Position numbers and translations under genes: made by a program | NCBI GenBank assembly: GCA_017859745.1 | Contig: JAFMML010000003.1 | Span: forward strand, 1 to 63,506 | Source: Planctomycetota bacterium | GTDB lineage: Bacteria > Planctomycetota > Phycisphaerae > Phycisphaerales > SM1A02 | Length of the DNA stretch: 63,506 nt | Reading direction: 5' to 3' | The notes under the pieces: generated by a model | The model's database searches: none | The model's input: only the letters and a program-made list of their open reading frames with translations | What the model was told of the DNA's origin: nothing | In this document: one piece after another, positions 15,320 through 57,922 of the stretch | Layout: each line of letters begins with the position of its first letter | How positions within the stretch are numbered: the stretch's first letter is position 1

Positions 15320-15331
15320 TAGGATTCCTTC
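15320..15331 (+). promoter_or_regulatory. Leaderless promoter: TAGGAT-N6-ATG
   Basis: A TANNNT hexamer (15320-15325) ends 6 nt before the ATG of the acyl-CoA dehydrogenase gene, which puts the expected transcription start on the A of ATG. There is no Shine-Dalgarno in the gap. Confidence 0.65.
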
Positions 15332-16582
15332 ATGACCCCCGAAATGCTCAAGGCCGCCGAGGCCGTTGCCGCGTCCACTCCCGTCTCCGCCGACGAGGCC
15401 TTCACGGCCGAGGATCGGGAGAAGCTCGTCGCCGACGTCGAGGCCTACTGCCAGGAGCTTCGTCCGGTCGAGGAGATCAAGTATCTCGAGCGCGAGTTCA
15501 ACCCCGCGATCACCGAACTCGCCAAGAAGCACGGGGTCTGCGGCATGCCGGTGCCGAAGCGCTACGGCGGCCGGGGTGCGGACAGCCTGACCTACGCCCG
15601 GATGCTCGCCCGCATCAACCGCGAGGGCTCGGGGCCGCGGACCTTCTTCAGTGGCCAGTCCTCGATCGGCCAGTACCCGATCCTCAAGTACGGCACCGAG
15701 GACCAGAAGCTCCGCTACCTGCCGAAGTCCTGCACCGGCGACCTGATCCTCGCCTTCGGCCTCACCGAGCCGGACGCCGGTTCCAATCCGCTCGAGGGCA
15801 CGACGACCTACCGCAAGGAGGGCGACAAGCTCATCCTGAACGGCGTCAAGTACCTGATCTCCAACGGCTCGATCGCGGACGCGGTCATCGTCTTCGCGTT
15901 CCCCGAGGGGGCCGAAGGCGCCGATCGACGCATGAGCGCGATCATCGTCGACACCGCCGGCGACACCTTCGAGAAGGAGCAGTTGCACTCGAAGCCCGGC
16001 ATGTACACCTGCGACACCGCGATGTTCCAGATGACCGAGCATCCGGTGCGGGCCGACAACCTGCTCGGTCAGGAGGGCGGCGGCTTCCGGATCGCCATGC
16101 ACACCCTCGTCTCGGGGCGCCTGTCGGTCGCCTCGGGATGTCTCGGTTCGATCGAGGATTGCCTCGCCGAGTGCATCGAGTGGGCGAAGACCCGTGAGCA
16201 GCACGGCAAGCCGATCGGACGACATCAGCTGGTGCAGGACCACCTCGCCAAGATCGAGATGGCCCGGGCCGCGAGCGACGCGATGATCGAGCGGGCCGCG
16301 ATCGCCAAGCAGCGATCCGACGACCATCCCGAGGACAAGGGGCTGCTCGCAGAGGCGGACTACCGTGTCGCCCAGGCGAAGTTCTTCGCGAGCAATGCCG
16401 CCTGGGAGGCCTCGGACCACGCGGTGCAGATCTTCGGCGGCCGTGGGTGGAGCGAGCTCTACCGTCCGTTCCGCCACCTCCAGGACGTGCGGGTCTGCAG
16501 GATCTACGAAGGCACCGACGAGGTGATGAAGCTCAAGATGGGCGCTCATCTGCTCGGCAAGGAGTTCGACGCCTTCAGGTGA
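15332..16582 (+). CDS. Acyl-CoA dehydrogenase
   Basis: A 416-residue FAD enzyme of fatty-acyl or related CoA-ester oxidation. It has the family motif FGLTEPDAGSNP, the FAD-binding C-terminal stretch AVQIFGGRGW, and RIYEGTDEVMKL with the position of the catalytic Glu. The length is typical. It stands alone, with its own leaderless-type promoter and a terminator hairpin behind it. The substrate chain length cannot be told, and no ETF or enoyl-CoA hydratase genes lie nearby. Confidence 0.93.
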   Translation: MTPEMLKAAEAVAASTPVSADEAFTAEDREKLVADVEAYCQELRPVEEIKYLEREFNPAITELAKKHGVCGMPVPKRYGGRGADSLTYARMLARINREGSGPRTFFSGQSSIGQYPILKYGTEDQKLRYLPKSCTGDLILAFGLTEPDAGSNPLEGTTTYRKEGDKLILNGVKYLISNGSIADAVIVFAFPEGAEGADRRMSAIIVDTAGDTFEKEQLHSKPGMYTCDTAMFQMTEHPVRADNLLGQEGGGFRIAMHTLVSGRLSVASGCLGSIEDCLAECIEWAKTREQHGKPIGRHQLVQDHLAKIEMARAASDAMIERAAIAKQRSDDHPEDKGLLAEADYRVAQAKFFASNAAWEASDHAVQIFGGRGWSELYRPFRHLQDVRVCRIYEGTDEVMKLKMGAHLLGKEFDAFR

Positions 16583-16583
16583 T

Positions 16584-16603
16584 CGGCCCTTCGGCCGTTC
16601 TCT
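16584..16603 (+). terminator. Hairpin plus TTCTCTT after the acyl-CoA dehydrogenase
   Basis: The stem CGGCC / GGCCG around CTTC is followed by TTCTCTT, immediately after the stop codon. It is a plausible intrinsic terminator. Confidence 0.5.
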
Positions 16604-16665
16604 TCGATGCGGAGATCTCCGTTCGTGCGAGACGACGCCGCCGTCGACGGAAGGCACGCCGATCC

Positions 16666-17265
16666 ATGCGCATCGCCATCAGTGGGGCCCATTCGCTCGG
16701 CAAGTCCACCGTCGTCGACGACTGGGCGGAGTCGAATCCCGGATGGGTGCGTGAGGAGGAGCCCTATCGGGCACTCGGGCTGTACGGCCCGTACGAGATC
16801 CTCTTTCGAGACGCCTCGACCCGCCTGCACAACGGCATTCAACTGCACTACTGCATCGGGCGTGTGAACCGGTACTGCCGTCGCGAGGACGATGTCGTCT
16901 TCGATCGGGCCCCCGTCGACTACATCGCCTACTCCCAGTACACCGCCGAGTGCGGAACCACCGACATCGACGAGGCGTTCGTCCACTCGATGGTGTCCGC
17001 GGTGAGGGAGTCGCTCGACCGCCTCGACGTCATCGCGTTCGTGCCGATCTCCGAGCGATGGCCCGTGGAGATGGAGAACGACGGGATTCGCCCGGTCGAT
17101 CTGGAGTACCGCGAACGGGTGGATGCGATCTTCAAGCAGATCTACCGCGAGGGGCGATTCGACGTCATGCCCGCGCGGGGCGGTCCCGACCTCGTCGAAC
17201 TCGAAGGCCCTCGGGAGCGGCGGATCGAACAGCTGCGCGAGGCGATCGCAGCCCGTCGCGGCTGA
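16666..17265 (+). CDS. P-loop NTPase of the AAA_28 / NadR-kinase-like type
   Basis: A 199-residue protein that begins almost directly with a P-loop, GAHSLGKST (residues 7-15). A DRAPVDYIAY stretch near 85 fits the nucleoside-kinase-like AAA_28 group. Members phosphorylate small molecules or are uncharacterised ATP-binding proteins. The ATG at 16666 was chosen because upstream codons are arginine-rich filler and the P-loop is normally N-terminal. It converges on the SRPBCC gene with 2 bp between the stops. The substrate is unknown. Confidence 0.7.
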   Translation: MRIAISGAHSLGKSTVVDDWAESNPGWVREEEPYRALGLYGPYEILFRDASTRLHNGIQLHYCIGRVNRYCRREDDVVFDRAPVDYIAYSQYTAECGTTDIDEAFVHSMVSAVRESLDRLDVIAFVPISERWPVEMENDGIRPVDLEYRERVDAIFKQIYREGRFDVMPARGGPDLVELEGPRERRIEQLREAIAARRG

Positions 17266-17267
17266 AC

Positions 17268-17729: not shown

Positions 17730-17810
17730 GGCGGCTCGGCCTCCGGGGCTGGGGGGACGGAATGCGGTCGGGGATTCGTCGAAACCGATCCCGCGGCTTC
17801 ACCCTCGACG

Positions 17811-18560: not shown

Positions 18561-18594
18561 GAGTCGTTCCGGCGGGAGGCGAGGCGAAGGGTCG

Positions 18595-18600
18595 ATCGTA
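18595..18600 (-). promoter_or_regulatory. Likely -10 (TACGAT) for the zinc-ribbon gene
   Basis: TACGAT on the minus strand lies about 34 nt before the ATG, which would give a short leader. Confidence 0.4.
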
Positions 18601-18668
18601 TCGAACCCGTCCGCCGATGGGAACGCGCCGCTCCCGGAACTGGATCGAGTTGGTTCAAGATTCGGAGG

Positions 18669-19598: not shown

Positions 19599-19735
19599 GT
19601 CGGGAGGTTCGCGAGGTGGGTCTCGAAGTGGATCCGGCCCGTGGTTCGTGGTTCGTGGTTCGGCGGCGGTCGGGGCGAACGCTTCGGATCGGCGGGTCGG
19701 GGCGATGGATGCGACAGAGCGGATACGGGTCGGGC

Positions 19736-20113: not shown

Positions 20114-20691
20114 GACGGACTCGCCCCTTGGCCGTTGCCGACAGGCATGTCGAGGCGGCGGATGCCGATCGGGCGGTCGCCTCTCGGCGGAAGCATCTCG
20201 ATGGGCACGATGGGTTCGATCCGCACCTGCCAAGGCGGTCGGATCACCAGACCCACCGGACTCTCGATCAGGCTCCACGCCGAACGGAACGGATCGAGCA
20301 GCGCCGCTGTCGTCACCCGTCCGCCGTCGGTCTCGACGGAGACCGCCTTCTCGGGCGAAGGGAGGGGCCCGACGGGAATCTCCCGGCCCGGCATCGGATC
20401 GATCTCGAAGGCGGGCGTGGGGTTCACCTCGACCTGGCCTCGGGGGGCGGACACCACCACCGTCGGCCAGGTGGTGCGATCGAACGGCACCGGAGTCCAT
20501 GGCGCGTCCGAAGGCAGCAGAGGCACGTCGCCGCGCGTCGTCGCGGTCGCCGCGGCGAGATCCGGCAAGTCCACGCCGAAGGGTCCGACGGCGGTGTTGA
20601 GCGAGCCGGTGCAGGCCGAGCCGGTCAGGACCGCCGCCGCCGCCGCCGCGCCGGACAACCCGATCGGACCGAGAAGACGGTGCGTTCGCAT
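20110..20691 (-). CDS. Hypothetical lipoprotein
   Basis: A 193-residue protein with a signal peptide ending TGSAC27, so probably an exported lipoprotein. The rest is Pro/Val-rich without a domain I recognise. It is cotranscribed with the downstream rhodanese gene (overlapping stop and start). A TACGAT hexamer lies 7 nt before the ATG, which suggests a leaderless message. Function unknown. Confidence 0.65.
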   Translation of the reverse strand: MRTHRLLGPIGLSGAAAAAAVLTGSACTGSLNTAVGPFGVDLPDLAAATATTRGDVPLLPSDAPWTPVPFDRTTWPTVVVSAPRGQVEVNPTPAFEIDPMPGREIPVGPLPSPEKAVSVETDGGRVTTAALLDPFRSAWSLIESPVGLVIRPPWQVRIEPIVPIEMLPPRGDRPIGIRRLDMPVGNGQGASPS

Positions 20692-20704
20692 GGCCCCGAT
20701 CGTA
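20692..20704 (-). promoter_or_regulatory. Leaderless promoter: TACGAT-N7-ATG
   Basis: The minus-strand hexamer at 20704-20699 is spaced 7 nt from the ATG at 20691. Confidence 0.55.
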
Positions 20705-21417: not shown

Positions 21418-21418
21418 G

Positions 21419-21739
21419 TCAGCCGCCAAGAGCCTCGAGGGCACCTGCGATCTCGGACATCGCCTTGGCGTCGCCCGAAGACCGGGCCGCCTCGAGACCG
21501 GTTCGAAGTTCTTCGCGGGCCTCCGCGGCACGGCCGAGACCTTCGAGAAGTCGCGCCTTGTGGAAGCGGGCATAGGCATGGGTCGGATCGGCGGCGACGG
21601 TGCGGTCGTACCACTCGATCGCTCGTTCGAGGTCGCCCGCCTTGGCGTGCTCCTGGGCGATGCCGTAGAGGCAGAACGGATCGTCCGGCTCCGCGGCCAG
21701 CAGCCGTTGCAACTTCTCGAGGCGACTCGAATCGGGCAT
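21419..21739 (-). CDS. TPR protein
   Basis: A 106-residue protein with about two tetratricopeptide repeats (FCLYGIAQEHAKAGDLERAIEWYDR, in parts, then AYARFHKARLLEGLGRAAEA). It is likely a small protein-interaction module. An ATG ten codons upstream is possible, but the ATG at 21739 has a TACACT hexamer 6 nt before it, which supports this start. It is cotranscribed with recX. Partner unknown. Confidence 0.8.
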   Translation of the reverse strand: MPDSSRLEKLQRLLAAEPDDPFCLYGIAQEHAKAGDLERAIEWYDRTVAADPTHAYARFHKARLLEGLGRAAEAREELRTGLEAARSSGDAKAMSEIAGALEALGG

Positions 21740-21751
21740 GTCGGGAGTGTA
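21740..21751 (-). promoter_or_regulatory. Leaderless promoter: TACACT-N6-ATG
   Basis: The minus-strand -10 at 21751-21746 overlaps by two bases with the plus-strand -10 of the divergent lipoprotein gene. Confidence 0.65.
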
Positions 21752-21761
21752 CGGTGCCGCC
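21750..21761 (+). promoter_or_regulatory. Leaderless promoter: TACGGT-N6-ATG
   Basis: The plus-strand -10 at 21750-21755 ends 6 nt before the ATG at 21762. The shared TA at 21750-21751 also belongs to the opposite -10. Confidence 0.65.
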
Positions 21762-23351
21762 ATGCCCACACCGAGAGGTTCCGCCTGCCGTCCATTCGAG
21801 ACCCTTGCGGCGTGTCGATCCGTGCGAGCCGTTGCGCTGGTCCTGACCTCCGCGTCGCTTCTGGGGCCGCTCGTCGGCTGCTATACGCCACCGCCGCCCC
21901 GGGACTTCGGCCCTCCTGCGCCGCCGAAGGCGAGGGTGATCGATCAGGTCGGCGGGACCCACCATGTCCAGACCGTCCACGACGGCCGCTGGTATTGCGG
22001 CTTCGGCAGCGAACTTCTGGTGCTCGAGCCGACCCGTGGGTTCCTGCGGCATCGCATGGCGTTGCGCGAATTCGGCGAGGGCGGCGCGATCTGCGATCTG
22101 ATCGTCCGCGGCGACTCGATGTACGCGGTGCTCGAGGACACCGCGGTGGTCGAGCTGTCGCTGGCGGATCCCGACCGTCCGGAGATCGTGGGAGAGATCG
22201 CCTCGGAGGATCTGGGCGTGATGCCGCGTTCGATACGGGAGGTCGAAGGTGCGCTGTATGTGAGCGGGCGCGGCGGCGTGGTGCTCTTCGACGACCCCGG
22301 GCGTCCCCGACTCGCGGACCGACTTGCCGAGTCCGACGCGACGGAGGCCGGGCCGGTGGTTCCAACCGAACACGGGCCCGCGGCGTCGACCGGCCGGCGG
22401 GTGCACCGAATCGATGGGGGGCGGTACCTCGGAGCCGCCACGGCGCTGGAAGTGGTGCCGAACTCCCGCAACGGCCCCGCGCCGAGTCGCCTCGCATTCG
22501 CGCTGCAGGGCGCGAACGCGGCCGAGGTGGGACTTGCCGGCCCCGATCTTCGCTCGATCGCGACTCGGGCCGTTCCGGGCGAAGTTCGCCGGATTCGGGT
22601 GGATGGCGATCGTCTCTGGGTGGTCGAGGACACCGCGATCCTCGGCTACCCGATCCAGGGCGATCGCCTCGGCGACCCGTTGTTCGTATCGGTCAGCGGC
22701 GCCCGCGACGTCGCCGTGCTGGACGAGAACCATCTGGCCGTGTGCGGCCGGTTCGGTCGGGCGATCTACCGGATCGCGACGACCGATCAGGGGCCTGGCG
22801 ACACCTTCTTCGCGGTCGTTCGCGAGCCCTCGGGACTCGAGAAGGCCACCCATGACGGACGCTCGGTGCTCACGGGTGGCCCCGAGGGCGCATGGCTCTA
22901 CGACGCGGGACGCGGTGCCCGTCTGACCGAGCCACCGGACTCGGAGAGCCTGGAGCCGGAGACCGAGGCGGTGGCGGCCTGGGGCACGGCGAACATCGTC
23001 GACTCGGGCCGCCGCGTCGAGGTCGAGTTCGAGCCTCTCGTCGGTCCGAAGGGCGAGGAGGTCGCGCTCCCGACCTTTTCATGGTCCCCGCCGCGGGATG
23101 GCCTCGCCATCACCCTGCTGATCGTCGGCGACAGCCTTTGGGTCGGTCACGAACGAGGCCTCGATCTGCTCCGGCGCGAGCTGCCCCCGGAGGATCTCGA
23201 GCCCGACGATCCCGAGTGGCCGCCGCCGATGCGTCACGTCGAGGGCCTCGAGTTCGACGGACCCGTGCGCTATCTGTTCCCACAGCGAATCGGAAGCCGA
23301 GTGCACTTCGTCAGCGTCGAAGGGGGCCTCGGCGTCGTCGACGACGAGTGA
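21762..23351 (+). CDS. Lipoprotein with beta-propeller-like repeats
   Basis: A 529-residue lipoprotein with a signal peptide ending LVGC40. The mature chain has several short strand-rich units of the LWVVEDTAILGYPI / DVAVLDENHLAVCGRFGRAI kind, reminiscent of the LVIVD or other beta-propeller repeats used by secreted planctomycete proteins. No catalytic motif is visible. It is transcribed alone from a 22-bp divergent intergenic region shared with the TPR/recX unit. Function unknown; an extracytoplasmic scaffold is my best guess. Confidence 0.65.
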   Translation: MPTPRGSACRPFETLAACRSVRAVALVLTSASLLGPLVGCYTPPPPRDFGPPAPPKARVIDQVGGTHHVQTVHDGRWYCGFGSELLVLEPTRGFLRHRMALREFGEGGAICDLIVRGDSMYAVLEDTAVVELSLADPDRPEIVGEIASEDLGVMPRSIREVEGALYVSGRGGVVLFDDPGRPRLADRLAESDATEAGPVVPTEHGPAASTGRRVHRIDGGRYLGAATALEVVPNSRNGPAPSRLAFALQGANAAEVGLAGPDLRSIATRAVPGEVRRIRVDGDRLWVVEDTAILGYPIQGDRLGDPLFVSVSGARDVAVLDENHLAVCGRFGRAIYRIATTDQGPGDTFFAVVREPSGLEKATHDGRSVLTGGPEGAWLYDAGRGARLTEPPDSESLEPETEAVAAWGTANIVDSGRRVEVEFEPLVGPKGEEVALPTFSWSPPRDGLAITLLIVGDSLWVGHERGLDLLRRELPPEDLEPDDPEWPPPMRHVEGLEFDGPVRYLFPQRIGSRVHFVSVEGGLGVVDDE

Positions 23352-24168: not shown

Positions 24169-24794
24169 GGGGTTCCCCTTGCAGGCTCCGCGGCGCGTGC
24201 CATGTGCGAGCGTGGCCGCGTGGGCAGCCCCGGCAGGATCAGGGCCAGCGGCAGCGCGAGTCCCACCGCAAGCATCCTGACGCCGTAGAGGCGATCCGCG
24301 AGGACGTGCGTCGCCTCGAAGCCGTCCCGCACGGCGAGCGCCGATTCGAGATCCCCAGCCCGCAGTAGTTCGCGGTAGGTCGCGAGCGACGCCTGCATCG
24401 CGGGGGCGATCGAAAGATTGTGGATCGACGCAAGGACCAGTCCTGCGGCGACGAGGATCGCCACGATGGCGGCAAGGCGCCCGCCGGGCCGGCCCGCGAG
24501 GCGCCTCCAGCAGAACACCGCGACGCCGAATGCGATCGGTGCCAGGAGCCACTGCGCAAGATCGGTGACGCCGAAGACCCGGTCCATCGCGAAGCCGGCG
24601 GCGAGGCGCCCGCTCGCGGCGGGATCCGCCGCCGCCAGGATTTCGTGGCCGGGCACGATCACCCCTCGCGAGGAGAGGGCCGGGAATGCGGAGATGGCCG
24701 CGACCACGACCGCCAGGCCGCAGGCGAACCACAGCGACAGGGCCCATCCGAGCACCGCCGGCACAACGCGAGAAGTTCGGGACGAGTCGGACAT
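24165..24794 (-). CDS. Hypothetical membrane protein
   Basis: A 209-residue protein with four hydrophobic segments (about 11-35, 80-95, 107-125 and 175-190) and an extracytoplasmic loop after the first. It resembles DUF4149-like small membrane proteins in layout, but I cannot assign a family. It overlaps nth by ATGA and is the first gene of that unit, with a TAGCAT hexamer 6 nt before the ATG. Function unknown. Confidence 0.7.
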   Translation of the reverse strand: MSDSSRTSRVVPAVLGWALSLWFACGLAVVVAAISAFPALSSRGVIVPGHEILAAADPAASGRLAAGFAMDRVFGVTDLAQWLLAPIAFGVAVFCWRRLAGRPGGRLAAIVAILVAAGLVLASIHNLSIAPAMQASLATYRELLRAGDLESALAVRDGFEATHVLADRLYGVRMLAVGLALPLALILPGLPTRPRSHMARAAEPARGTP

Positions 24795-24806
24795 CCCGCG
24801 ATGCTA
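24795..24806 (-). promoter_or_regulatory. Leaderless promoter: TAGCAT-N6-ATG
   Basis: Minus-strand hexamer at 24806-24801; the ATG follows after 6 nt. Confidence 0.65.
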
Positions 24807-24857: not shown

Positions 24858-24870
24858 TACACTCGCGTTC
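24858..24870 (+). promoter_or_regulatory. Leaderless promoter: TACACT-N7-ATG
   Basis: Hexamer 24858-24863, with the ATG at 24871. It is divergent from the leaderless promoter of the membrane-protein/nth unit. Confidence 0.55.
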
Positions 24871-25665
24871 ATGTTCGAGGCGTCCTCCCGCATCCGACTT
24901 GCCGCGGCCATCGAGGCGTTGGGCACGACCGCCCGCGAGGCGTTCGCTCATCTGCGTCATGCCGGGGTGCGAGGGGTCCAGTGGCCCGCGGCCGCGGCGG
25001 GCCTGAGGCCGCGCGATCTCGACCGCGGCGGAAGACGGGACCTCGCCACCGTGCTCCGTCGCTTCGAACTGGAGATGTCGGGCGTCGATCTGCCGATTCC
25101 CGCCGAGCACTTCGGGGACGCCTCGCGCGTCGATCGCGCCGTGGCGGCGGCCGAGGAGGCGATCCGCTTTGCGGCGGAGTTCTCACGAGTGCCGGTCTGC
25201 ATGAGACTGCCCGCCCTTCGGCGCGGGGACGTCGATGGCGGCTCTTCATCGAGCGAGGCCGAAGGCGCGATCGCGGCGGTGCTGGCGGTCGCCGATCGCC
25301 ATGGAGTGCGCCTCGCCGACGAGACGGTGCCGCCTCCGGACACGAGTTCCGATCGGGCGCTCGTCGGCCTCGGGCTCGATCCGGTGGCGCTGCTCGCGGG
25401 GGGCTTCGACCCGGCAGCGGTGGCGCTCGAACGCGGCGCCGACGTGGTCGCCGCCCGGTGGTGCGACCTCGACGCGGCCGGGGTTCGTCTGCCTCCCGGG
25501 CTCGGAGGGCGTCTCGACGTGGTGCGCTACCGAGTGAGCCTCGAGATCGCCGGCTTCGAAGGGCATGTGGTGATCGACCCGAGGCAATGGAACGATCCGA
25601 TCGGCGGCGTGGCGATCTCCGTCGACGCGTGGCGCGAGGCCGCATCGCCCGCGGAGCCGTCATGA
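24871..25665 (+). CDS. TIM-barrel-like hypothetical protein (sugar isomerase/AP-endonuclease-2 type)
   Basis: A 264-residue soluble protein with alternating helix and strand segments. It includes LRHAGVRGVQWP and LAVADRHGVRLADE, which resemble xylose-isomerase-like TIM barrels, but the usual metal-binding His/Glu residues are not convincing. It overlaps the acpS gene by ATGA and so is probably coexpressed with it. Function unknown; it may be a degenerate, non-enzymatic member of the fold. Confidence 0.55.
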   Translation: MFEASSRIRLAAAIEALGTTAREAFAHLRHAGVRGVQWPAAAAGLRPRDLDRGGRRDLATVLRRFELEMSGVDLPIPAEHFGDASRVDRAVAAAEEAIRFAAEFSRVPVCMRLPALRRGDVDGGSSSSEAEGAIAAVLAVADRHGVRLADETVPPPDTSSDRALVGLGLDPVALLAGGFDPAAVALERGADVVAARWCDLDAAGVRLPPGLGGRLDVVRYRVSLEIAGFEGHVVIDPRQWNDPIGGVAISVDAWREAASPAEPS

Positions 25666-26099
25666 GCGAGTCGCCGCACACGTCCGATCTGGCGATCGTC
25701 GGTCACGGCATCGACCTCTGCGAGGCGCATCGGATGCTCGAGCTCCTCGAGCGTCACGGCACGCGGGCGCTCGAGCGGCTCTTCACCGCCGAGGAGCAGG
25801 CCTACGCGGCGCCGGCAGGGGAGCCGAACGGCGAACGTCTCGCCGCGCGGTTCGCGGCGAAGGAGGCGATCCTGAAGGCCCTCGGCACGGGCTTGCGAGG
25901 TGGCATCCTCTGGACGGACGTCGAAGTCGTCCGCGACGCCAATGGGCGGCCGGGCGTCCGTCTCGCCGGCGAGGCCGCGGTGGTCGCGGAGCGTCTCGGC
26001 ATCGTCGCCTGGCACCTGTCCCTGTCGCACGCCGCAGGCATGGCCATGGCGAGCGTCATCGCATGCGGATGGCGGCCGTGCCCGGATAGCATGCGGTGA
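25662..26099 (+). CDS. acpS: Holo-[acyl-carrier-protein] synthase
   Basis: A 145-residue 4'-phosphopantetheinyl transferase that activates acyl carrier protein. VGHGIDLCEAHRM carries the Mg-binding D18, and RFAAKEAILKALGTGL is the second signature. HLSLSHAAGMAMASVIA closes the fold. The length is slightly above the usual 120-130. It overlaps the upstream gene by ATGA. Its last codons contain the -10 element of the next gene. Confidence 0.93.
   Translation: MSESPHTSDLAIVGHGIDLCEAHRMLELLERHGTRALERLFTAEEQAYAAPAGEPNGERLAARFAAKEAILKALGTGLRGGILWTDVEVVRDANGRPGVRLAGEAAVVAERLGIVAWHLSLSHAAGMAMASVIACGWRPCPDSMR
26087..26098 (+). promoter_or_regulatory. Leaderless promoter TAGCAT-N6-ATG inside the acpS 3' end
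   Basis: Hexamer 26087-26092 lies within the last acpS codons; the ATG at 26099 follows after 6 nt. This supports ATG 26099 over the GTG at 26096 and would let the downstream gene be transcribed independently. Confidence 0.6.
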
Positions 26100-26830
26100 T
26101 GCGACGACGTGGTGGACCAGTCCCCTACGAACTGCTCGGGCAGGCCCGTGGGTTGCCGACGCCCTCCGGAGACGCTCGATCCGAGGGCACCGGGTTCGAC
26201 GGGAGTGCCTCCGGCGGGACTTGGGGACCCGGTCGGACCGTTCGCATGCCGGTGGGCTGGGTGCCTCTGGCGGTCGTCGGCATGACGCTCGTGGCGGTCC
26301 TGGCCTACATCTGGGGGTTTTCGCGAGGGCAGTACGACGCCCGCCTCGAGGCGGGGAGGGCACTCGAGGCCTCCATGGCGTCGAGATCGATCGACGACCC
26401 TCTCGCCGTTCCTCGGGTCCCTGAAGGGCCTGCGGGAGGGGGCGCACCCGCATCCCAGGCCTCGGACGCGGCGGACCCCGGTCGGGAGTCCGGTGGAGTC
26501 CTGGCGGCCCTGGAGTCTGGCGATCCACGCCGGGCGGGTCTCAACTACTTCGTACTGGCCCATGCCACCCCGGCCACCGCCCCGGAGTTGGCCACGTTCT
26601 GTCGCGAGCGGGGACTTGAGGCTCGGGTCGTTGACGACCATAATGGCGTGGCTCGGAAGGTCGTCGTCGTCCCCGGCTACGTCGACGGCGAGCGACGCAG
26701 CGATCGGATCCAGGCTCTCGAGCAACGGATCGTCGAAGTCGGTCTCGCCTGGAAGTCGCACCGTCGCGGCAACGCCGACTTCTCCGGCTACTACCCGGAA
26801 CTTCATCGCGGCCCCGGCGGGGGCGGATGA
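26099..26830 (+). CDS. Single-pass membrane protein with SPOR-like C-terminus
   Basis: A 243-residue protein. A Pro/Gly-rich N-terminal tail of about 55 residues precedes one membrane segment (VGWVPLAVVGMTLVAVLAYIWG, near 57-77), so the topology is N-in. After a disordered linker, residues about 150-240 contain a small alpha/beta domain (NYFVLAHAT, ELATFCRERGLEARVV, RKVVVVPGY) resembling SPOR-type domains that bind denuded peptidoglycan. That similarity is only at pattern level. The ATG overlaps the acpS stop (TGATG). Confidence 0.65.
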   Translation: MRRRGGPVPYELLGQARGLPTPSGDARSEGTGFDGSASGGTWGPGRTVRMPVGWVPLAVVGMTLVAVLAYIWGFSRGQYDARLEAGRALEASMASRSIDDPLAVPRVPEGPAGGGAPASQASDAADPGRESGGVLAALESGDPRRAGLNYFVLAHATPATAPELATFCRERGLEARVVDDHNGVARKVVVVPGYVDGERRSDRIQALEQRIVEVGLAWKSHRRGNADFSGYYPELHRGPGGGG

Positions 26831-29025: not shown

Positions 29026-31074
29026 CTATCTGGGAGTCCGCACCTCGGTCCCGGTCGGATCCGTCCGCATCAGCATCAGCGGATGCGTCTTCGGCGCCAG
29101 CCAACGCCACTGGGTGTGGTAGGTGTCGTCGTTGTCCGCGACGCCCACCTGCAGGCGCAGGGGGCGCCCGTCGTCGAGGAGGCCCGGCAGGCGAACCTGT
29201 GCCGACCACCCGTCGCCAAGCGGACGGCAGATCGCCTCCGGCGCCGTCGGATCCCCGCCCGTCACCTCGATCGCCGAGGGAACGCCGCCGGAAGACGAGG
29301 CGAATGCCCGAATCGAGGCCTCTCCGGGGAGAAGTTCAAGCAGCAGCGACCGGCGGGACGGTCCTTCGCCGACATCGATGCGGATGGCATCCTGCATCGG
29401 ATCCTCGAGCCTTTCCCGATCGATCCTCGAGTCCTCGACCGCCCCAGCGAGACGGTCGCCGGGGGCGAGGACGATCAGCATCAGGTCGCCGTCCTCCAGC
29501 CTCGAGATCGCCACCGTCGGATCCGGCTCGGGCAGGTCGTAGGGCGAGAACGTCCAGGCCGAGACTGGAAGTTCGACGACGTCGCCGACGGCAAGTCCCC
29601 GTTCCCGTGCGATCGGCACCCGGCGAATCACCGTCATCGGAACCTCGCGGCCGCGAGAGTCGCGAAACGTCGCCTTCAGGCGCAGTTCCGTAGGCGGCAG
29701 GGGGGCCGCATGGTCCTTCAGCGTCCAGGCGAGATCGACGCTCCGTCGCTCGCCCGGCGCCAGTTCGATGGGGCCACCGGCTGCGATGGCGATCGGCGAG
29801 TCGAGTCGCATCGTGAAGCGGTTGAAGGTGTCGACCGGCGTGCGGCTCGCCCACGCCAGATCGCCTGCCGACTCGGGCTCGACCGGTGCCGGCGCGGGCA
29901 TCTCCGTCAGGGGCATCCAGGTCCAAGACAGCGGCACGTCGAGGGGGTTCGCCAGATCCAGTCGCAGCGTCCCCGAGGTCGCGGCGCCTTCGGAGGTCTC
30001 GACGACGGCGCCGACGATCGCGGCCGCGTCGCCGGCGTTCTTCAAGCGCCACGCGCGATCCTGATCCTCGCGCAGAACGTGGTCCTCCCCAAGGGTGGCG
30101 CCGACGAGTTGATGATGGACCCGCACCGAATCGCCGTCGTCCACGCCCGGGTGGATGGTGAGAAAGGTCAGGTGCTGCAACTGGCCGCTCGCGGGGTGCT
30201 GGTCGATCAGGCCGCCGCATGAGCCAAGCACGTGGTACTGCACCCCGTCGAGATCGGGATCGCGCTGCATCGCGTGGAAGTGGCCGGCGATCACCGCATC
30301 CACGCCGTGTTCGACGAGCATCGGATGCACCCGCTCTTCCCACGCGGCCGATCCATATCGCCACATCGGACGATGCACGAGCAGCACCGTGGGAAGCTCG
30401 CGCGAGGCCGCGTGAGCGAGGGTGTCGTCGAGCCACGCCAGGTCCTCCGGCGAGAAGGCGACGCCCTCCTCGCCGCGACGCCCCTCGCTGTATCCCACCA
30501 CGATGGTGGCACGATCGAATTCGACCGCGTAGCGAAGCGGTCCGAAGCGATCGCGGTACCGGTCTTCGAAGGTGTCGTCGTTCGGATCGCGGGTTCCCGA
30601 CACGATGTCGTGGTTCCCCGCGACCGGCCAGGCTGGGGTGGGCAGACCCGAGGCGATCTCGAACCACTCGTCGGTTTCCCGATCCCAGGTGCCGGTGGAA
30701 CGGGTGTAGCCCTGAACCATGTCGCCGATGGTGAAGACGGCGTCCGGTTCGATGCGCTCGAGATCACGCACTGCAGTGGCGAGGTAGGGCAGGCCCCACG
30801 CCCGTCCCGTGGTTCGGTCGGGCAGGATCGCCAGTCGAAGCGGCGGCGTCGGCAGCGTGACCGCGACGACCTGTCGTTCGACGATCGATCCGTTCGAGTC
30901 TCGCGTGAACCGATCGAGTCCCGACGGATCGATCGACTGGGCGATCGCGACCGACGACGCGACGCCCGCCCAGACCACGGCAAGATCGAGCGGTCGAATC
31001 CGATGCCATGCGCAGCGAGTGCAAGGACGGGGCGACTCCAGACTCGCGCGGACGAAAGGTTGGCGATGTTGCAT
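29026..31074 (-). CDS. Exported calcineurin-like metallophosphoesterase
   Basis: A 682-residue protein with a cleavable or anchor-type signal (about 27-48), a metallophosphoesterase domain, and a C-terminal strand-rich region ending in a CBM9/DOMON-like module (about 560-680). Metal motifs IGDMVQG, AGNHD, and GHFHAM are present. The first motif, usually D-x-H, reads LPDRTTG here, so one metal ligand is replaced, as in other planctomycete members. A TACGCT hexamer stands 6 nt before the ATG. It may act on extracellular phosphoesters; the substrate is unknown. Confidence 0.82.
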   Translation of the reverse strand: MQHRQPFVRASLESPRPCTRCAWHRIRPLDLAVVWAGVASSVAIAQSIDPSGLDRFTRDSNGSIVERQVVAVTLPTPPLRLAILPDRTTGRAWGLPYLATAVRDLERIEPDAVFTIGDMVQGYTRSTGTWDRETDEWFEIASGLPTPAWPVAGNHDIVSGTRDPNDDTFEDRYRDRFGPLRYAVEFDRATIVVGYSEGRRGEEGVAFSPEDLAWLDDTLAHAASRELPTVLLVHRPMWRYGSAAWEERVHPMLVEHGVDAVIAGHFHAMQRDPDLDGVQYHVLGSCGGLIDQHPASGQLQHLTFLTIHPGVDDGDSVRVHHQLVGATLGEDHVLREDQDRAWRLKNAGDAAAIVGAVVETSEGAATSGTLRLDLANPLDVPLSWTWMPLTEMPAPAPVEPESAGDLAWASRTPVDTFNRFTMRLDSPIAIAAGGPIELAPGERRSVDLAWTLKDHAAPLPPTELRLKATFRDSRGREVPMTVIRRVPIARERGLAVGDVVELPVSAWTFSPYDLPEPDPTVAISRLEDGDLMLIVLAPGDRLAGAVEDSRIDRERLEDPMQDAIRIDVGEGPSRRSLLLELLPGEASIRAFASSSGGVPSAIEVTGGDPTAPEAICRPLGDGWSAQVRLPGLLDDGRPLRLQVGVADNDDTYHTQWRWLAPKTHPLMLMRTDPTGTEVRTPR

Positions 31075-31086
31075 GGCGGCAGCGTA
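31075..31086 (-). promoter_or_regulatory. Leaderless promoter: TACGCT-N6-ATG
   Basis: Minus-strand hexamer at 31086-31081, with 6 nt to the ATG at 31074. Confidence 0.65.
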
Positions 31087-33264: not shown

Positions 33265-33626
33265 GAGGTCGGACCGGTGGAGAGGGACCGCAGGTACGCC
33301 CAGGTGTAGATTCCGGTGGAGTGCCCGTCGGAAAAGAGGATTCGGACGGCGTAGTTGCCCACCAGTTCGGCGCCGTTCGCTCTCAGTGGGCCGGAGGCCG
33401 CTCCGCTCGGCAGCACCGCGAGCGGATTGCGATCGATTTCCGCCCGGAGCTCCCGAGCATCTGCCGAGGGGCTGTTGCGCCTCAGGTGCTCGATCGAGAG
33501 AAGGTCGATCCGTCCATCGGTCCACTCGATCTCGAGGCCGCGTTCCCGATCGAGATGCAGCCGTTTCGGGGGCGGCACCTCGCCGGCGGGGTGGGCGACG
33601 GAGATGTCGGCAGGTCCGCGGGGCAC
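33261..33626 (-). CDS. DUF971 domain protein
   Basis: A 121-residue protein carrying the DUF971 fold (also the N-terminal part of gamma-butyrobetaine hydroxylases and of some Mrp/ApbC proteins). LEIEWTDGRIDLLSIEHLRRNSPSA, VGNYAVRILFSDGHSTGIYTWAYL (each in two parts) and the C-terminal end fit it. DUF971 proteins are often linked to iron-sulfur cluster or cofactor biosynthesis. I chose GTG 33626 over ATG 33659, because GTG has a TACCAT hexamer 6 nt upstream and the ATG has none. It is the first gene of the unit that includes the thioesterase. Confidence 0.82.
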   Translation of the reverse strand: MPRGPADISVAHPAGEVPPPKRLHLDRERGLEIEWTDGRIDLLSIEHLRRNSPSADARELRAEIDRNPLAVLPSGAASGPLRANGAELVGNYAVRILFSDGHSTGIYTWAYLRSLSTGPTS

Positions 33627-33638
33627 GGCGGAATGGTA
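33627..33638 (-). promoter_or_regulatory. Leaderless promoter: TACCAT-N6-GTG
   Basis: The minus-strand hexamer at 33638-33633 is spaced 6 nt from the GTG at 33626. It shows the motif also works with a GTG start. Confidence 0.6.
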
Positions 33639-33653: not shown

Positions 33654-33665
33654 TAGCATGCGTCC
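33654..33665 (+). promoter_or_regulatory. Leaderless promoter: TAGCAT-N6-ATG
   Basis: Hexamer 33654-33659, with 6 nt to the pyrF ATG at 33666. It is divergent from the DUF971 promoter 16 bp away. Confidence 0.65.
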
Positions 33666-49752: not shown

Positions 49753-49879
49753 GCCTTTCTCCGACGGGACCGCCGCGAGGATCGGAGGTCACGGAGGGCC
49801 GTTGTCGAGGCGAGCCGCGTGACGGATTCCCCGGCGGGCGTCACGACGAGTCGCGAATCGAGAGACGTATCGAGAGACG

Positions 49880-49891
49880 TATAGTACGACG
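49880..49891 (+). promoter_or_regulatory. Leaderless promoter: TATAGT-N6-ATG
   Basis: This is the best -10 match of the set, spaced 6 nt from the ATG at 49892. Just upstream is a 12-bp direct repeat (49858-49881, TCGAGAGACGTA twice) that overlaps it. Confidence 0.65.
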
Positions 49892-51013
49892 ATGAACCGA
49901 CCTCGAACCGTCGACGTCCGCGCTCGCCTCCTCCTTCTGGAGCCGGGATCGTCGCTCCTGCTCGCGATGATCCTGCTGGCGACGGCCATGGCGACCATGA
50001 CGACCATGACGGCCTCTGCCGACGACACCCCGTCTCCGGATGGAGATCGCCTGGTGCTCGAGGGTGGTGCGGAGGTCTTCGGCGAGATCGTCAAACGGAC
50101 CGGGGCCTCGATCTGGATCGACGTCGGTCCGCAGGTGCTGGAGTTTCGTCTCGCGGATGTGGCCGAGGTCGTGGACGTCGACGGCGGCACGACGAAGGCG
50201 GGTGGATTCTCAGGCGGCATCTTCTCCACCGCCGAGGACCTGCCCGAACGCAGTCCGTTGGAGCAGGCGGAGCGTCTCGGCCCGACGGTGGTGAAGGTGG
50301 CGACGCCCGGCGGACTCGGCTCGGGCGTGATCGTCCACCCCGACGGATACGCCGTGACCAATGCCCATGTGGTTCAAGGAGAGACCGCGCTGCGAGCGAC
50401 GGTCTGGCTGCCCGAGGCGGACGGGTCCACCGTTCGGACGACCATCGAAGACGTCGAACTGGTCGCCATCAACAACCACTACGACCTCGCTCTGGTCCGG
50501 ATTCCCCATCCCGAAGGGGTTCCCTTCGACTTCGCGCCGCTCGAACGGGCCGACGAACTCGAGCCGGGTCAGCCGATCTTCGCGATCGGCAATCCACTCG
50601 GGCTCGAGCAGACGCTCACGGAGGGGGTCGTCTCGACGCGCACCCGTCAGATGGACGGCCTGACCTACATTCAGATCGACGTCGCCATCAATCCGGGCAA
50701 CTCCGGCGGGCCGCTCTTCAACGCCCGCGGCGAGGTCGTGGGGATCACCAACATGGGGATCCTGTCGATGGAGTCGCTGAACTTCGCGATTCCCGCCCGC
50801 TACGTGAAGGACTTCCTGTTGAACCGGTCCGCCTTCGCCTACGACGAGAGCAACCCGAATTCAGGGCATCGGTACCACCTGCCTCCCACGCGACGCCGAG
50901 ACGGCGTGCCGTCCCAACTGCTGACCGGCCCCGCGCAACGGGCGCAGGATCGACCAGCCTCCACTTCTCCCGACTCTCCCGACTCTCCCGACCCCAGGGG
51001 ATCCTCCCGATGA
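49892..51013 (+). CDS. Trypsin-like periplasmic serine protease (HtrA-like, no PDZ)
   Basis: A 373-residue protein. A signal segment (about 22-43) is followed by a small N-terminal domain and a DegP-like protease domain with the full triad H159 (TNAHVV), D198 (YDLALVRI) and S271 (GNSGGPL). The usual PDZ domains are absent; instead the chain ends in a Pro/Ser/Asp tail partly built from a 9-bp repeat (SPD units). It likely degrades misfolded or damaged envelope proteins. It overlaps the next gene by ATGA. Confidence 0.87.
   Translation: MNRPRTVDVRARLLLLEPGSSLLLAMILLATAMATMTTMTASADDTPSPDGDRLVLEGGAEVFGEIVKRTGASIWIDVGPQVLEFRLADVAEVVDVDGGTTKAGGFSGGIFSTAEDLPERSPLEQAERLGPTVVKVATPGGLGSGVIVHPDGYAVTNAHVVQGETALRATVWLPEADGSTVRTTIEDVELVAINNHYDLALVRIPHPEGVPFDFAPLERADELEPGQPIFAIGNPLGLEQTLTEGVVSTRTRQMDGLTYIQIDVAINPGNSGGPLFNARGEVVGITNMGILSMESLNFAIPARYVKDFLLNRSAFAYDESNPNSGHRYHLPPTRRRDGVPSQLLTGPAQRAQDRPASTSPDSPDSPDPRGSSR
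50966..50992 (+). repeat. 9-bp tandem repeat (SPD units)
   Basis: Three copies of TCTCCCGAC encode repeated SPD in the C-terminal tail of the protease. Confidence 0.95.
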
Positions 51014-52806: not shown

Positions 52807-52862
52807 GGGACCCCCGCAGCGGCCCCGACAAGGCCCGGCCAGGGCCCGACCCGATCGAGGCC

Positions 52863-52902: not shown

Positions 52903-52934
52903 GGAGTCGCCCCTCGGACCTGACCGGGGACGAC

Positions 52935-53852: not shown

Positions 53853-53880
53853 CGTGCAGCGTCCGGCACGGTCGGTCCGT

Positions 53881-54501: not shown

Positions 54502-56561
54502 GAGCCGCCTCGGATCTCGGCCGATAGCTCCGTCCCGAGCGCGGCCTGCACCGCAGCGACGGTGGGATCGACCTCCTCGTGTCGCAGGGTCCGATCGGAA
54601 TGGCGAAACACCATGCGGAGGGTGACGCTCTTTCGGTCCTCGCCGATGGAGCGGCCCCGCCAGCACTCGATGAACTCGAGCCCCTCGAGCGGTGCGGCGT
54701 TGCTCGCGACGGCGTCTCGAACCACTCGGTCGATCGAGTCCCATGCGACCGATTCTGCAACGACCACGGAGAGGTCGCGCTCGATCGAGGGGTGCTGTGG
54801 CGGCTCGGAGATCGCCGGCGTCGGTGCGGCATCCCCGATCAGGCGCGAAAGGTCCAGTTCGGCGACCGCGACCGGGCGATCGAGGCCGGCCTTCGCGACG
54901 AGATCGGTGGCGAGGAGGCCGATCACGCCGAGTTCGACACCTTCGTCGCCTGCGAAGGAGATCGACGCCGCCGGGCGGAGCCCGGGACGTTCGACGCCCT
55001 CGGCGGCGATCGCGATGGGACGCCCGGAGACCCGCTCGGCGAGACGTTCCACCGCGCCTCGAAGGCGTCGGTAGGCCGACTGGGCGTCCTCTCCGCCGTC
55101 GACGGCCATGCCGACGGTGCGACGTTCGAGGGTCTCTCCATCGGTGGCGATGCGGAAGCTCGCGGCGACCTCGAACACGGCGAGGCCTCGAACGCCCACG
55201 CCCTCGTTGCGGGCGAGCACCTCGAGCAGGCTCGGCAGCAGACTCGGCCTCAGGAACGGCGTGCCTCCGGCTCGGTCGTCATCGACCTGAAGGAGTCTCT
55301 CGCCCGGGAGCAGGAACACGTCCGCGAGGCGGGGACCGATCAGCGAGTGGCAGACCGATTCCACGAAGCCCGACGCCGCGAGCTGGTCGCGCACCGCCTT
55401 CACCGCCTGCACCGAGTGCTGCGGAGCGGGGGGTCGGATCTCGATCCGCTCGCGCAGCGGGACCGCGTCGAGGCCGTGGATGCGACAGATCTCCTCGACG
55501 AGATCGACCTCTCGCTCGACATCCATGCGCCGGGGAGGCACGGTGGTTCGGAAGACGGTGCCGCCCTCGCTCGAGTCGATGCGACACGCGAATCCGAGGG
55601 TGTCCAGGATCGCGGCGATCCGCGTCTCGGGGATCTCGATGCCGAGCAGGCGTGCGATCTCGGAGGATCGCAGCGCAACGTGCCGAGGGCCGGGGATCGC
55701 GGCGCCGTCGGCGACCACGTCGCCGACGAGCCGACCGCCCGCGAGTTCGAGGATGAGTTCCACGAGACGGTCCGCAGCCGGACCGACTTCCGCCGGATGG
55801 ACGCCGCGCTCGAATCGGAAGCTCGAGTCCGAACGGAGGTTCAGGCGTCGACTGGTCGTGCGGACCGAGACCGGATCGAAGGTGGCGGCCTCGACGAGCA
55901 CCGCCGTGGTCGCGTCGTCGACGGCGGTTGCGGCGCCGCCCTTGATGCCAGCGAGGGCGACGGCGCGGGTGGCGTCGGCGATGACCAGATCGCCTTCGGC
56001 AAGGTCGAGTTCGGCGGCGCCCTCGCCCAGAGGAAGGAATCGCTCTCCGGCCGCGGCGCCTCGGATCTCGATCCGGTCGCCTTGCAGCTTGCCGAGATCG
56101 AAGACATGGGTCGGCTGGCCGAGTTCCCAGAGCACGTAGTTGGTGCAGTCGACGAGGACGTTGCGGGGGATCTGGCCGATCGCCTCGAGGCGCCGCCGCA
56201 TCCATTCCGGACTCGGGCCGACGGTGACGCCCTCGATCACCTGCGCGGTGTACAGCGGGCACCGTTCGGGGGCGCGATCGAGCACGGTGATCGGCGTTGG
56301 TCCGACCCGATCCCGTCGAACGGGCGTCGCCGGCGGTCGATAGGTCCGGCCCGAGACCGCGGCGATCTCGCGGGCGAGCGCCGCATGGGCGAGGCAGTCG
56401 CCGCGGTTGGAGGTGATCTCGACCTCGAGCCAGGTCTCGCCATGGGCGTCCTCGCCGCGATCGTCGATCGGAAAGCCGACCGCCGTGAGGAAGGCGTCCT
56501 GCTCGTCGGCGGTGCAGGGCGGGTCGAGATGGGCGTTGATCCAGGAGACGCTGGCGCGCAT
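54498..56561 (-). CDS. pheT: Phenylalanyl-tRNA synthetase beta subunit, short form
   Basis: A 687-residue beta subunit that pairs with PheS to charge tRNA-Phe. The B1-type start TWLEVEITSNRGDCLAHAALAREI, the NVLVDCTNYVLWELGQPTHVFD B3/B4 editing block, the B5 segment (SSEIARLLGI) and the C-terminal anticodon-binding FDX-ACB domain (HPSIERDLSVVV) are present. Compared with E. coli PheT the first 45 residues lead directly into B1: the EMAP/OB-fold tRNA-binding insert (about 110 residues) is absent. No frameshift is visible. pheS is not adjacent. A TACCCT box precedes the ATG by 6 nt. Confidence 0.9.
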   Translation of the reverse strand: MRASVSWINAHLDPPCTADEQDAFLTAVGFPIDDRGEDAHGETWLEVEITSNRGDCLAHAALAREIAAVSGRTYRPPATPVRRDRVGPTPITVLDRAPERCPLYTAQVIEGVTVGPSPEWMRRRLEAIGQIPRNVLVDCTNYVLWELGQPTHVFDLGKLQGDRIEIRGAAAGERFLPLGEGAAELDLAEGDLVIADATRAVALAGIKGGAATAVDDATTAVLVEAATFDPVSVRTTSRRLNLRSDSSFRFERGVHPAEVGPAADRLVELILELAGGRLVGDVVADGAAIPGPRHVALRSSEIARLLGIEIPETRIAAILDTLGFACRIDSSEGGTVFRTTVPPRRMDVEREVDLVEEICRIHGLDAVPLRERIEIRPPAPQHSVQAVKAVRDQLAASGFVESVCHSLIGPRLADVFLLPGERLLQVDDDRAGGTPFLRPSLLPSLLEVLARNEGVGVRGLAVFEVAASFRIATDGETLERRTVGMAVDGGEDAQSAYRRLRGAVERLAERVSGRPIAIAAEGVERPGLRPAASISFAGDEGVELGVIGLLATDLVAKAGLDRPVAVAELDLSRLIGDAAPTPAISEPPQHPSIERDLSVVVAESVAWDSIDRVVRDAVASNAAPLEGLEFIECWRGRSIGEDRKSVTLRMVFRHSDRTLRHEEVDPTVAAVQAALGTELSAEIRGGS

Positions 56562-56573
56562 GGTCGAAGGGTA
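56562..56573 (-). promoter_or_regulatory. Leaderless promoter: TACCCT-N6-ATG
   Basis: The minus-strand hexamer 56573-56568 is spaced 6 nt from the pheT ATG at 56561. A leaderless pheT would have no room for the usual attenuation leader. Confidence 0.6.
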
Positions 56574-56599
56574 CCCGCACGCCGCCCTGCCCGTGGCGG

Positions 56600-56612
56600 T
56601 ACGCTGCGGCGG
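56600..56612 (+). promoter_or_regulatory. Leaderless promoter: TACGCT-N7-ATG
   Basis: Hexamer 56600-56605, with 7 nt to the ATG at 56613. It is divergent from the pheT promoter. Confidence 0.55.
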
Positions 56613-57260
56613 ATGTCTGCAACCGCCCGGTTTCGAAGCGTGTCTGCGACGGTCCTCGCAGCGGCGCTGCTCGCGGGAGTCTCGGCCGCCTGCAGCGGCA
56701 CGCCCACGGTCCCAGATGCGGCAAAGGTCCCCGAGGGGTTCTCGGTGAACGCCACGGTGATCCGCGGTCGTCAGGCGCCGGCGGTGCCTCGGGTCGAGGA
56801 GCGGTCCGGCCGATGGGTGCTGCTGCCGGACGGTTCGCTGCGTGCCGCCGCGGCGACCGATCCCGATCACGCCGATCGTCCGGGGCGGGCCCGGACCCTT
56901 CGAGAGTCGGAGGTCGCCGAACTCTGGGCGCTCGCCGTTCGCCTCGGGCTCGCCGATCCCGTCGCCGCCGACCCGGTCGGCAATGCCTCGCTGCTCGAGG
57001 CCGGTCCGGGCGAACTCGTGCAGATCGTCGAATTCGCCGTGGCCGATCCGACGACGGGGCCGCAAGCGTGGACCTTCGTCCATCGGGGGCCGGCCGACGC
57101 CGGCGGCGATCGGGTGCTCGGCATCTTCGTGAGGGCCCTCGCAGAGCGAGCGTGGATGGCCGACCGGCCCGGAGACTTCGAGCCGCCTGCGGCGATCCGA
57201 TACGACTTCGGACCCGACCCCCATGCCCGCTATCGCGTCCCCGAGGACGAGCAGCCGTGA
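56613..57260 (+). CDS. Hypothetical lipoprotein
   Basis: A 215-residue protein with a signal peptide ending VSAAC27, followed by a soluble domain of mixed helices and strands. A short run AELWALAVRLGLADP suggests a helical segment, but I see no known motif. It is the first of two overlapping lipoprotein genes (the next starts with GTG inside this stop). Function unknown. Confidence 0.65.
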   Translation: MSATARFRSVSATVLAAALLAGVSAACSGTPTVPDAAKVPEGFSVNATVIRGRQAPAVPRVEERSGRWVLLPDGSLRAAAATDPDHADRPGRARTLRESEVAELWALAVRLGLADPVAADPVGNASLLEAGPGELVQIVEFAVADPTTGPQAWTFVHRGPADAGGDRVLGIFVRALAERAWMADRPGDFEPPAAIRYDFGPDPHARYRVPEDEQP

Positions 57261-57838
57261 CGGGTTGGGGGGCGCCGCGATTGGAGCCGCGTTCCCGCGG
57301 CGAGATTCCCCTCGCGAGGAGGCTCGTCGGTCGGGGTGTTCTCGCGGTGATGCTCGCCGCGGCGACGACGTGGGCCGGATGCGCCTCGGCGGCCCGGGAC
57401 GATCGGACGCCAACCGGCGGTCGAAGTCTGTCGATCCAGCGGTGGATGCCCGCCGAGCGGAAGATCGTCTTCTACGAGGTCGACCGCAACGGCGTGTTCG
57501 GCACCTCCGGTGGCGTGGACGCCGAGATTCGGCAGGCCACGTGGACGACTCCGCTCGACGCCGAAACGCTCGCCGATCTGCTCGATCCGCCGAGCGCCGC
57601 TTCGTGGTGGGCCACGCTTGGCGAGGAGATCGATCGTGCCGGCTCGTCCAGGCCGGACGCGTCGTCGCCTCGCACCATGATCCGATTCATCGGTCCGACG
57701 CTCGATCGAGAACGGACCTACCGCGGCACGGCGGAATCGGTCGAGTCGCTGATCGATCGTCTTCGCGAGATCGCGATGGCCCGCTTCGAGGAGACGCTCG
57801 ACGCCCTGCCGCGGGCCGGCGAACGGTTCCCCAACTGA
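57257..57838 (+). CDS. Hypothetical lipoprotein
   Basis: A 193-residue protein with a signal peptide ending WAGC42 and an acidic alpha/beta mature part. WTTPLDAETLADLLDPPSA looks like a helix-forming unit. It has no recognisable family. The start is a GTG overlapping the preceding stop (GTGA), so it is made together with the lipoprotein upstream. Confidence 0.6.
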   Translation: MTGWGAPRLEPRSRGEIPLARRLVGRGVLAVMLAAATTWAGCASAARDDRTPTGGRSLSIQRWMPAERKIVFYEVDRNGVFGTSGGVDAEIRQATWTTPLDAETLADLLDPPSAASWWATLGEEIDRAGSSRPDASSPRTMIRFIGPTLDRERTYRGTAESVESLIDRLREIAMARFEETLDALPRAGERFPN

Positions 57839-57910
57839 ACGTCGTCCAGAGTCTTCGCCCTCGTCCAACTCCGGTGGTCGGCTCCCGTCGAACTCCACGC
57901 GGGACGCTCG

Positions 57911-57922
57911 TAGGATCCCGAC
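57911..57922 (+). promoter_or_regulatory. Leaderless promoter: TAGGAT-N6-ATG
   Basis: Hexamer 57911-57916, 6 nt before the ATG of the Hsp70-like gene. It is identical to the acyl-CoA dehydrogenase element at 15320. Confidence 0.65.

Follow-up and report, generated by a model that had tools for sequence, protein, structure and literature searches.

What is the hexamer TANNNT that stands immediately ahead of so many start codons in contig JAFMML010000003.1 of a Planctomycetota bacterium, and how would the genes that carry it be expressed? A sequence-only reading of this DNA had listed fourteen such starts between positions 15320 and 57922 of the window (the whole stretch analysed here, positions 1-63,506), and each of the fourteen hexamers was found where that reading had placed it, eleven ending 6 nucleotides (nt) before the start codon and three ending 7 nt before it. 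We refer to the hexamer as the box and to its distance from the start codon as the gap. The reading that we favour, with a probability of roughly 0.88, is that the boxes are sigma70-type -10 elements without a recognisable -35, that transcription would begin at the start codon or a few bases before it, and that the resulting mRNAs would be leaderless and translated without a Shine-Dalgarno (SD) sequence. Beyond what had been noted earlier, some divergent genes look leaderless on both sides, and their presumed -10 elements overlap.

The box is tied to the start codon

When the window was scanned with no gene model for TANNNT-N(g)-[AG]TG, 12 matches were obtained at g = 6, of which 11 open an open reading frame (ORF) of at least 100 amino acids and are the eleven listed starts, and 3 at g = 7, all of them listed; gaps of 3, 4, 5, 8, 9, 10, 12 and 15 nt gave 2, 0, 0, 1, 4, 0, 1 and 0 matches. 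The host genome comprises 3.24 Mb in 147 contigs, and a 671-kb sample of it, made up of 40 stretches and the window, was supplied with genes by a home-made caller blind to upstream motifs. Across the 1203 in-frame ATG or GTG candidates of the 317 unit-starting genes in this sample, gaps of 4 to 11 nt held 1, 4, 32, 14, 6, 5, 5 and 1 boxes against 2.0 expected per gap, a spectrum that rises steeply on the short side and has only a brief tail towards longer gaps. With the window set aside, 24 matches remain at gap 6 against 1.85 expected per gap (P = 7e-19). Out-of-frame candidates show no gap peak, the excess being confined to in-frame starts, and among patterns that fix three letters in six TANNNT is the most enriched at gap 6 (32 against 1.7 expected, z = 21.6; z = 9.7 for the runner-up). 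The start codons at this gap are ATG in 25 cases, GTG in 7 and TTG in none. Over the whole genome, for ATG, gap 6 has 184 matches, gap 12 has 26 and the mirrored control has 80.

The position of the box is also kept in orthologues. Relatives of the protein encoded from 21762 occur in 77 of the 101 genomes of the family, despite the lack of a Pfam match, and 70 of these 77 loci were examined, 69 of them with a candidate start. A box at a gap of 5-8 nt stands in 52 of the 69 loci and in 28 of 34 genera; the bin of 9-12 nt holds 16 loci, and those of 0-3, 13-16, 17-20, 21-24, 25-28 and 29-32 nt hold 5, 3, 3, 5, 2 and 5. A relative of the TPR gene that starts at 21739 lies divergently upstream in 52 of the 70 loci; both genes are boxed in 20 of these, only the 21762-like gene in 22, only the TPR gene in 2 and neither in 8. 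Seventeen of the 20 doubly boxed loci have 17-49 nt between the start codons, and three are looser (86, 111 and 232 nt, the last of these doubtful). For pyrF, matched in 60 genomes, a box at a gap of 6-8 nt was seen in 7 of the 30 loci examined, the window included.

Distribution across the phylum

For a survey of the phylum, 294 genomes with a completeness of at least 80 were scored for the pattern at gaps of 6 and 12 nt, at a Bonferroni level of 0.01, gap 12 being chosen as the control because the mirrored control is imperfect and exceeds the pattern itself in several AT-richer genomes. Gap 6 significantly exceeds gap 12 in 113 of the 294 genomes and in 29 of 85 families, and the host genome, with a ratio of 7.1, is the second highest of the survey. 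The sequence-only reading had staked itself on TANNNT being commoner at this spacing than at neighbouring ones, and so it is in the window, in the 671-kb sample, in the whole genome and in these 113 genomes. All 19 genomes of the window's order are positive (3, 8, 3, 4 and 1 in families f1 to f5), as are all those of families f59 (11), f23 (7), f32 (4), f27 (15) and f64 (5); no significant excess was found in f29 (0 of 20), f47 (0 of 19), f20 (0 of 16), f37 (0 of 14) or f67 (0 of 5). The test is weak in AT-rich genomes, where chance counts are high and mask a few hundred sites, and we discarded the idea that absence in AT-rich families is true absence. Among the Armatimonadetes and Deltaproteobacteria genomes counted, gap 6 and the mirrored control gave 356 and 278, and 718 and 557, respectively.

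The same pattern was followed at the level of first genes. In six positive families a box at gap 6 or 7 precedes 6 of 40 first genes (G222), 2 of 18 (G184), 3 of 9 (G152), 2 of 35 (G025), 6 of 53 (G126) and 2 of 14 (G266), all of them small samples, with boxes at gap 7 only in G025 and G266. In G081, from the negative family f29 and with a similar GC content (0.67), 0 of 45 first genes are boxed, a result that is informative as the genome is GC-matched; in the AT-rich G113 the background is flat and gap 6 has 0. Many families of the phylum show the trait, and in others it went undetected. As a separate observation on the host genome, the 16S rRNA on its contig C127 (L002-L004) was matched over only about its first 800 positions, at the contig end, a stretch that stops short of the anti-SD.

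A probable promoter element rather than a ribosome-binding motif

The box rate depends on gene context in G000, G229 and G262, three family genomes in which 81 of 502 first genes are boxed: 44 of 224 divergent genes carry a box as against 3 of 109 that overlap a same-strand neighbour (Fisher P = 5e-6), and the rate is 25 of 197 and 25 of 126 where the same-strand neighbour lies more than 100 nt and 31-100 nt away. An SD-like motif precedes 4 of the 81 boxed genes, 137 of the 421 unboxed first genes and 75 of 137 genes lying at most 20 nt behind a same-strand neighbour. The earlier claim of two classes of start, one boxed and one led by an SD, is statistically borne out by these figures (4 of 81 against 75 of 137), with the caveat that the scarcity of SD motifs before boxed genes is partly mechanical, because the box takes up part of the SD zone. 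When the boxes of the three genomes are aligned, their middle letters lean to C (TACNCT); the information content stays at or below 0.08 bits throughout the 45 bases upstream, so that neither a -35 nor a TG extension is visible. Counts of a TTGACA-like -35 at 15-19 bp upstream of the box agree (TTG, 2 against 3.5 expected; TTGA, 1 against 0.5), and a hidden -35 or TG extension, seen in neither analysis, was discarded. Motif, spacing, gene-class preference, the lack of SD and -35 motifs, conservation in orthologues and the clade pattern were all computed directly.

On the reading that we favour, RNA polymerase would read the box as a -10 element with no need of a -35 and, since the box ends 6-7 nt before the ATG or GTG, would start at the first base of the codon or up to a few bases earlier; the ribosome would then initiate on the leaderless mRNA without an SD. 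That the box is read by polymerase, where transcription starts and how translation proceeds are what we infer from the sequence. A leader of zero length and a very short one would look alike at this level, and a start on the codon itself is presumed.

Several observations weigh against this reading. Boxed genes are a minority class (46 of the 317 first genes of the sample, counting perfect boxes at a gap of 6 or 7 nt), and the box rate is not low (7 of 53) in same-strand genes 1-30 nt behind their neighbour. A C at position -1 is moderately enriched before boxed genes (61 of 81 against 240 of 421, P = 0.001); because C is frequent there in every gene class the contrast is modest, and it was dropped as strong proof of the start site. 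Relatives of PheT, itself encoded by a boxed gene of the window, are found at 47-48% identity in one Phycisphaerales and four Planctomycetota metagenome-assembled genomes (MAGs) and at 43% in a fifth; the placement of the surveyed families rests on these matches, which make the earlier label 'Phycisphaerae-like' plausible. The six whole genomes, however, have only a weak excess of gap 6 over the mirrored control (182/145, 235/210, 318/280, 191/165, 309/306 and 873/838). Finally, the other orders of the window's class (f6, f7 and f8) have a gap-6 excess in 0 of 9 genomes, which, set against the 19 of 19 in the window's own order, may reflect gain or loss of the trait inside one class.

The alternative that survives best is that TANNNT acts at the RNA level, as a ribosome-binding motif other than the SD, on mRNAs with ordinary leaders. 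The box does sit at the usual place of an SD, before genes that are without SD motifs, and the boxed genes close behind a same-strand neighbour would fit this explanation. Such a motif should, however, also serve overlapping operon genes, where the box is rare by comparison with divergent genes, and at the divergent pairs described below, whose start codons are 17-22 nt apart, an mRNA with a leader would need to start inside the opposite gene. On the context rates we discarded it as the principal explanation, and we regard it as improbable. Marginally less probable still is that the boxes are ordinary -10 elements of mRNAs with leaders, translated from a later codon. The start codons used here are predicted from sequence, and the gene caller often chose later ones (15344 for 15332, 21936 for 21762 and 49967 for 49892), but the peak is restricted to in-frame gaps of 6 and 7 nt, and in the pair of loci L203 and L204, from different genera, both proteins align from their first residues onwards at the box-proximal ATGs. 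Chance or composition, a natural suspicion for a motif that fixes just three letters and was judged by eye in a single window, is refuted for the class as a whole and barely worth entertaining, given the excess outside the window, the whole-genome counts and the gene-level results in two more genomes of the family; individual sites, 26099 for one, may nevertheless be chance matches.

Proposed two-way leaderless promoters

The -10 elements that we propose overlap on opposite strands, in the window between the starts at 21739 and 21762 and, in relatives, in the form TANNNTA. The window element has the form CAT-N6-ANNNTANNNT-N6-ATG (21737..21764, both strands): its two boxes overlap in one TA and the start codons are 22 nt apart. 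At some divergent pairs, overlapping boxes would let 17-22 nt carry two promoters with no 5' untranslated region (UTR). On balance we lean towards the view that in this planctomycete family a single symmetric 7-bp TANNNTA, or two boxes with a common TA, serves as a complete promoter in both directions where the start codons lie only 17 or 22 nt apart, giving two leaderless mRNAs with no -35, UTR or SD, and kept by selection across genera as the spacer letters change. The two genes would then be coupled by competition, since a polymerase bound one way would block the other.

The shared-TA form has 75 matches in the 101 genomes of the family and 24 in the mirrored control, and the tighter CAT-N5-TANNNTA-N5-ATG, whose start codons are 17 nt apart, has 39 against 24; opposite boxes 0-30 nt apart give 276 matches over 31 spacings, or about 8 per spacing, with a control of about 30 (control totals for all three counts were added by eye from tables). 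Among loci of the family, 12 of 30 with the shared-TA form (P = 0.013) and 14 of 29 with the TANNNTA form (P = 0.0009) have long ORFs on both sides, the base rate being 1150 of 5530 for any CAT-N10..39-ATG pair, where the length rule was slightly stricter; at 30 shared-TA loci of the phylum, mostly from AT-rich genomes, both are long in only 4. As statistical proof of the overlapping-box form the counts alone are weak, because a genuine box on one strand may be faced by a spurious one on the other.

The strong evidence comes from orthologous pairs that keep the form. A class-III aminotransferase and a glycosyltransferase are divided by the 17-nt form in G385 and G328, which belong to different genera. 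The identities are 59% and 47%, and both start codons are fixed by alignments that run, for each protein, from first residue to first residue. G399 and four genomes of another genus have the 17-nt form between the genes of an amidohydrolase and an unnamed protein. In two examined genomes of one genus it separates the genes of a radical-SAM protein (presumably RlmN-like) and a ferredoxin, and two more carry the same 23-mer. For a pseudouridine synthase pair, all three genomes examined, which belong to one genus, show the 22-nt form. The TPR/21762 pair itself has the 22-nt form in the window, and its counterparts in G367 and G392 (54% and 38% identity) have the 17-nt form. The idea that several shared-TA sites in relatives are orthologues of the window pair proved wrong, the window proteins matching none of the 30 loci L133-L162 by tblastn. 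Start codons 17-22 nt apart leave no space for leaders outside the opposite gene, and transcription from the start codons themselves would place the start sites 18 or 23 bp apart.

Two further sets of shared-TA matches lie outside these pairs. In an Armatimonadetes MAG (G300, of L031), opposite gap-6 boxes with one common TA occur at C15:6116-6143 and C63:1634-1661, and the two-way form may not be confined to one phylum. In the AT-rich G065, near-identical palindromic 28-mers on contigs C7, C9, C29, C40 and C48 are probably a dispersed repeat and not promoters.

The boxed starts of the window

Divergence from a neighbour is the rule for the boxed starts of the window (10 of 14), which include four doubly boxed pairs. 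The closest, with 22 nt between start codons, is formed by the TPR gene (TACACT, gap 6, ATG 21739; 21737..21751, minus strand) and 21762, by inspection a putative lipoprotein gene (TACGGT, gap 6, ATG; 21750..21764, plus). A PF06155 gene (TACCAT, gap 6, GTG 33626; 33624..33638, minus), which the home-made caller missed, faces pyrF (TAGCAT, gap 6, ATG 33666; 33654..33668, plus) across 39 nt. In the third pair pheT (TACCCT, gap 6, ATG 56561; 56559..56573, minus) lies 51 nt from 56613 (TACGCT, gap 7, ATG; 56600..56615, plus), and in the fourth, 76 nt separate 24794 (TAGCAT, gap 6, ATG; 24792..24806, minus) from a TIM-barrel gene of PF01261 (TACACT, gap 7, ATG 24871; 24858..24873, plus). The two remaining divergent starts belong to a metallophosphoesterase gene (TACGCT, gap 6, ATG 31074; 31072..31086, minus) and a trypsin-like protease gene (TATAGT, gap 6, ATG 49892; 49880..49894, plus). 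Directly upstream of the latter start, a 12-bp unit (CGAGAGACGTAT) is perfectly duplicated in tandem at 49859-49882, and its second copy supplies the first bases of the box.

The other four starts have same-strand neighbours. An acyl-CoA dehydrogenase gene (TAGGAT, gap 6, ATG 15332; 15320..15334, plus) and an HSP70 gene (TAGGAT, gap 6, ATG 57923; 57911..57925, plus) begin 145 and 84 nt downstream of theirs, and 20691 (TACGAT, gap 7, ATG; 20689..20704, minus) has a recX-like gene 60 nt ahead. The box of 26099 (TAGCAT, gap 6, ATG; 26087..26101, plus) lies within the end of gene 25662-26099, a member of the 4'-phosphopantetheinyl transferase family (PF01648, E = 2.9e-18) with which 26099 overlaps by one base (TGATG), and so would be an internal promoter or a chance match. 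That all fourteen are first genes of transcription units, as had been claimed, is ambiguous for 20691 and wrong for 26099. Nine of the fourteen proteins have a Pfam match at E <= 0.01; those encoded from 21762, 24794, 26099, 20691 and 56613 do not.

Comparison with known systems

The leaderless class is itself of a known kind. Leaderless transcription is predicted by GeneMarkS-2 for 21.6% of bacterial species, as quoted in PMC9581028, and TA-led leaderless genes were reported in 207 of 953 bacterial genomes, Planctomycetes being absent from the groups named in section 7 of that survey (PMC3160421). The sequence-only reading knew of no description for planctomycetes of this sort, and no account of a TANNNT leaderless class in the phylum was found in the literature searched, outside which lay subscription papers and supplements, including Fig. 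S7 of PMC12340547, which may cover Planctomycetota; that claim has nevertheless to be tempered, as the part of PMC5397173 that deals with a single planctomycete already suggests leaderless initiation and/or an S1-type bias. What the present results would add is an extension of leaderless expression, best known from Actinobacteria and Deinococcus-Thermus, to many families of apparent Planctomycetota, and its presence in some families and apparent absence from others within one phylum should make gain and loss traceable. There is also a practical consequence, in that gene finders relying on SD sequences alone will misplace such starts, as the home-made caller did for several.

In its details the class resembles the TA-led genes of PMC3160421, as far as that survey's account goes: in both, TANNNT lies about 12 bp upstream of the start, the middle letters are little informative at high GC and the signal comes without a -35. 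The marks of TA-led genes found here are a peak some 10-13 bp upstream (32 against 2.0 at gap 6 and 14 against 2.0 at gap 7), scarcity of SD motifs and a preference for unit starts; unlike the genes of that survey, the boxed fraction here is a minority and the trait is patchy inside one phylum. A classical sigma70 promoter carries a -35, whereas no TTGACA-like hexamer stood out here. In Deinococcus, according to the relevant part of PMC12340547, the motif was shown by experiment to be the -10 region of leaderless genes; motif and spacing are common to that Deinococcus-Thermus signal and to ours, which comes from another phylum and is argued from sequence.

The novelty rests on the two-way leaderless form. 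Nothing of its kind was among the literature matches listed, from which subscription papers and supplements were again absent, and the word 'leaderless' does not occur in the main text of PMC10268837 or PMC12825309, which deal with bidirectional promoters. In E. coli, by the account in PMC12825309, divergent start sites are most often 18 bp apart, with 10 and 23 bp also common. These promoters share with the present ones -10 elements that overlap on the two strands. They differ, so far as the two papers describe them, in that the prediction here is of two leaderless transcripts, which would make the distance between start sites equal to that between start codons. The two-way form would reduce a divergent control region to 17-22 bp, a minimal natural case for polymerase and ribosome alike, with no -35, no UTR and no SD.

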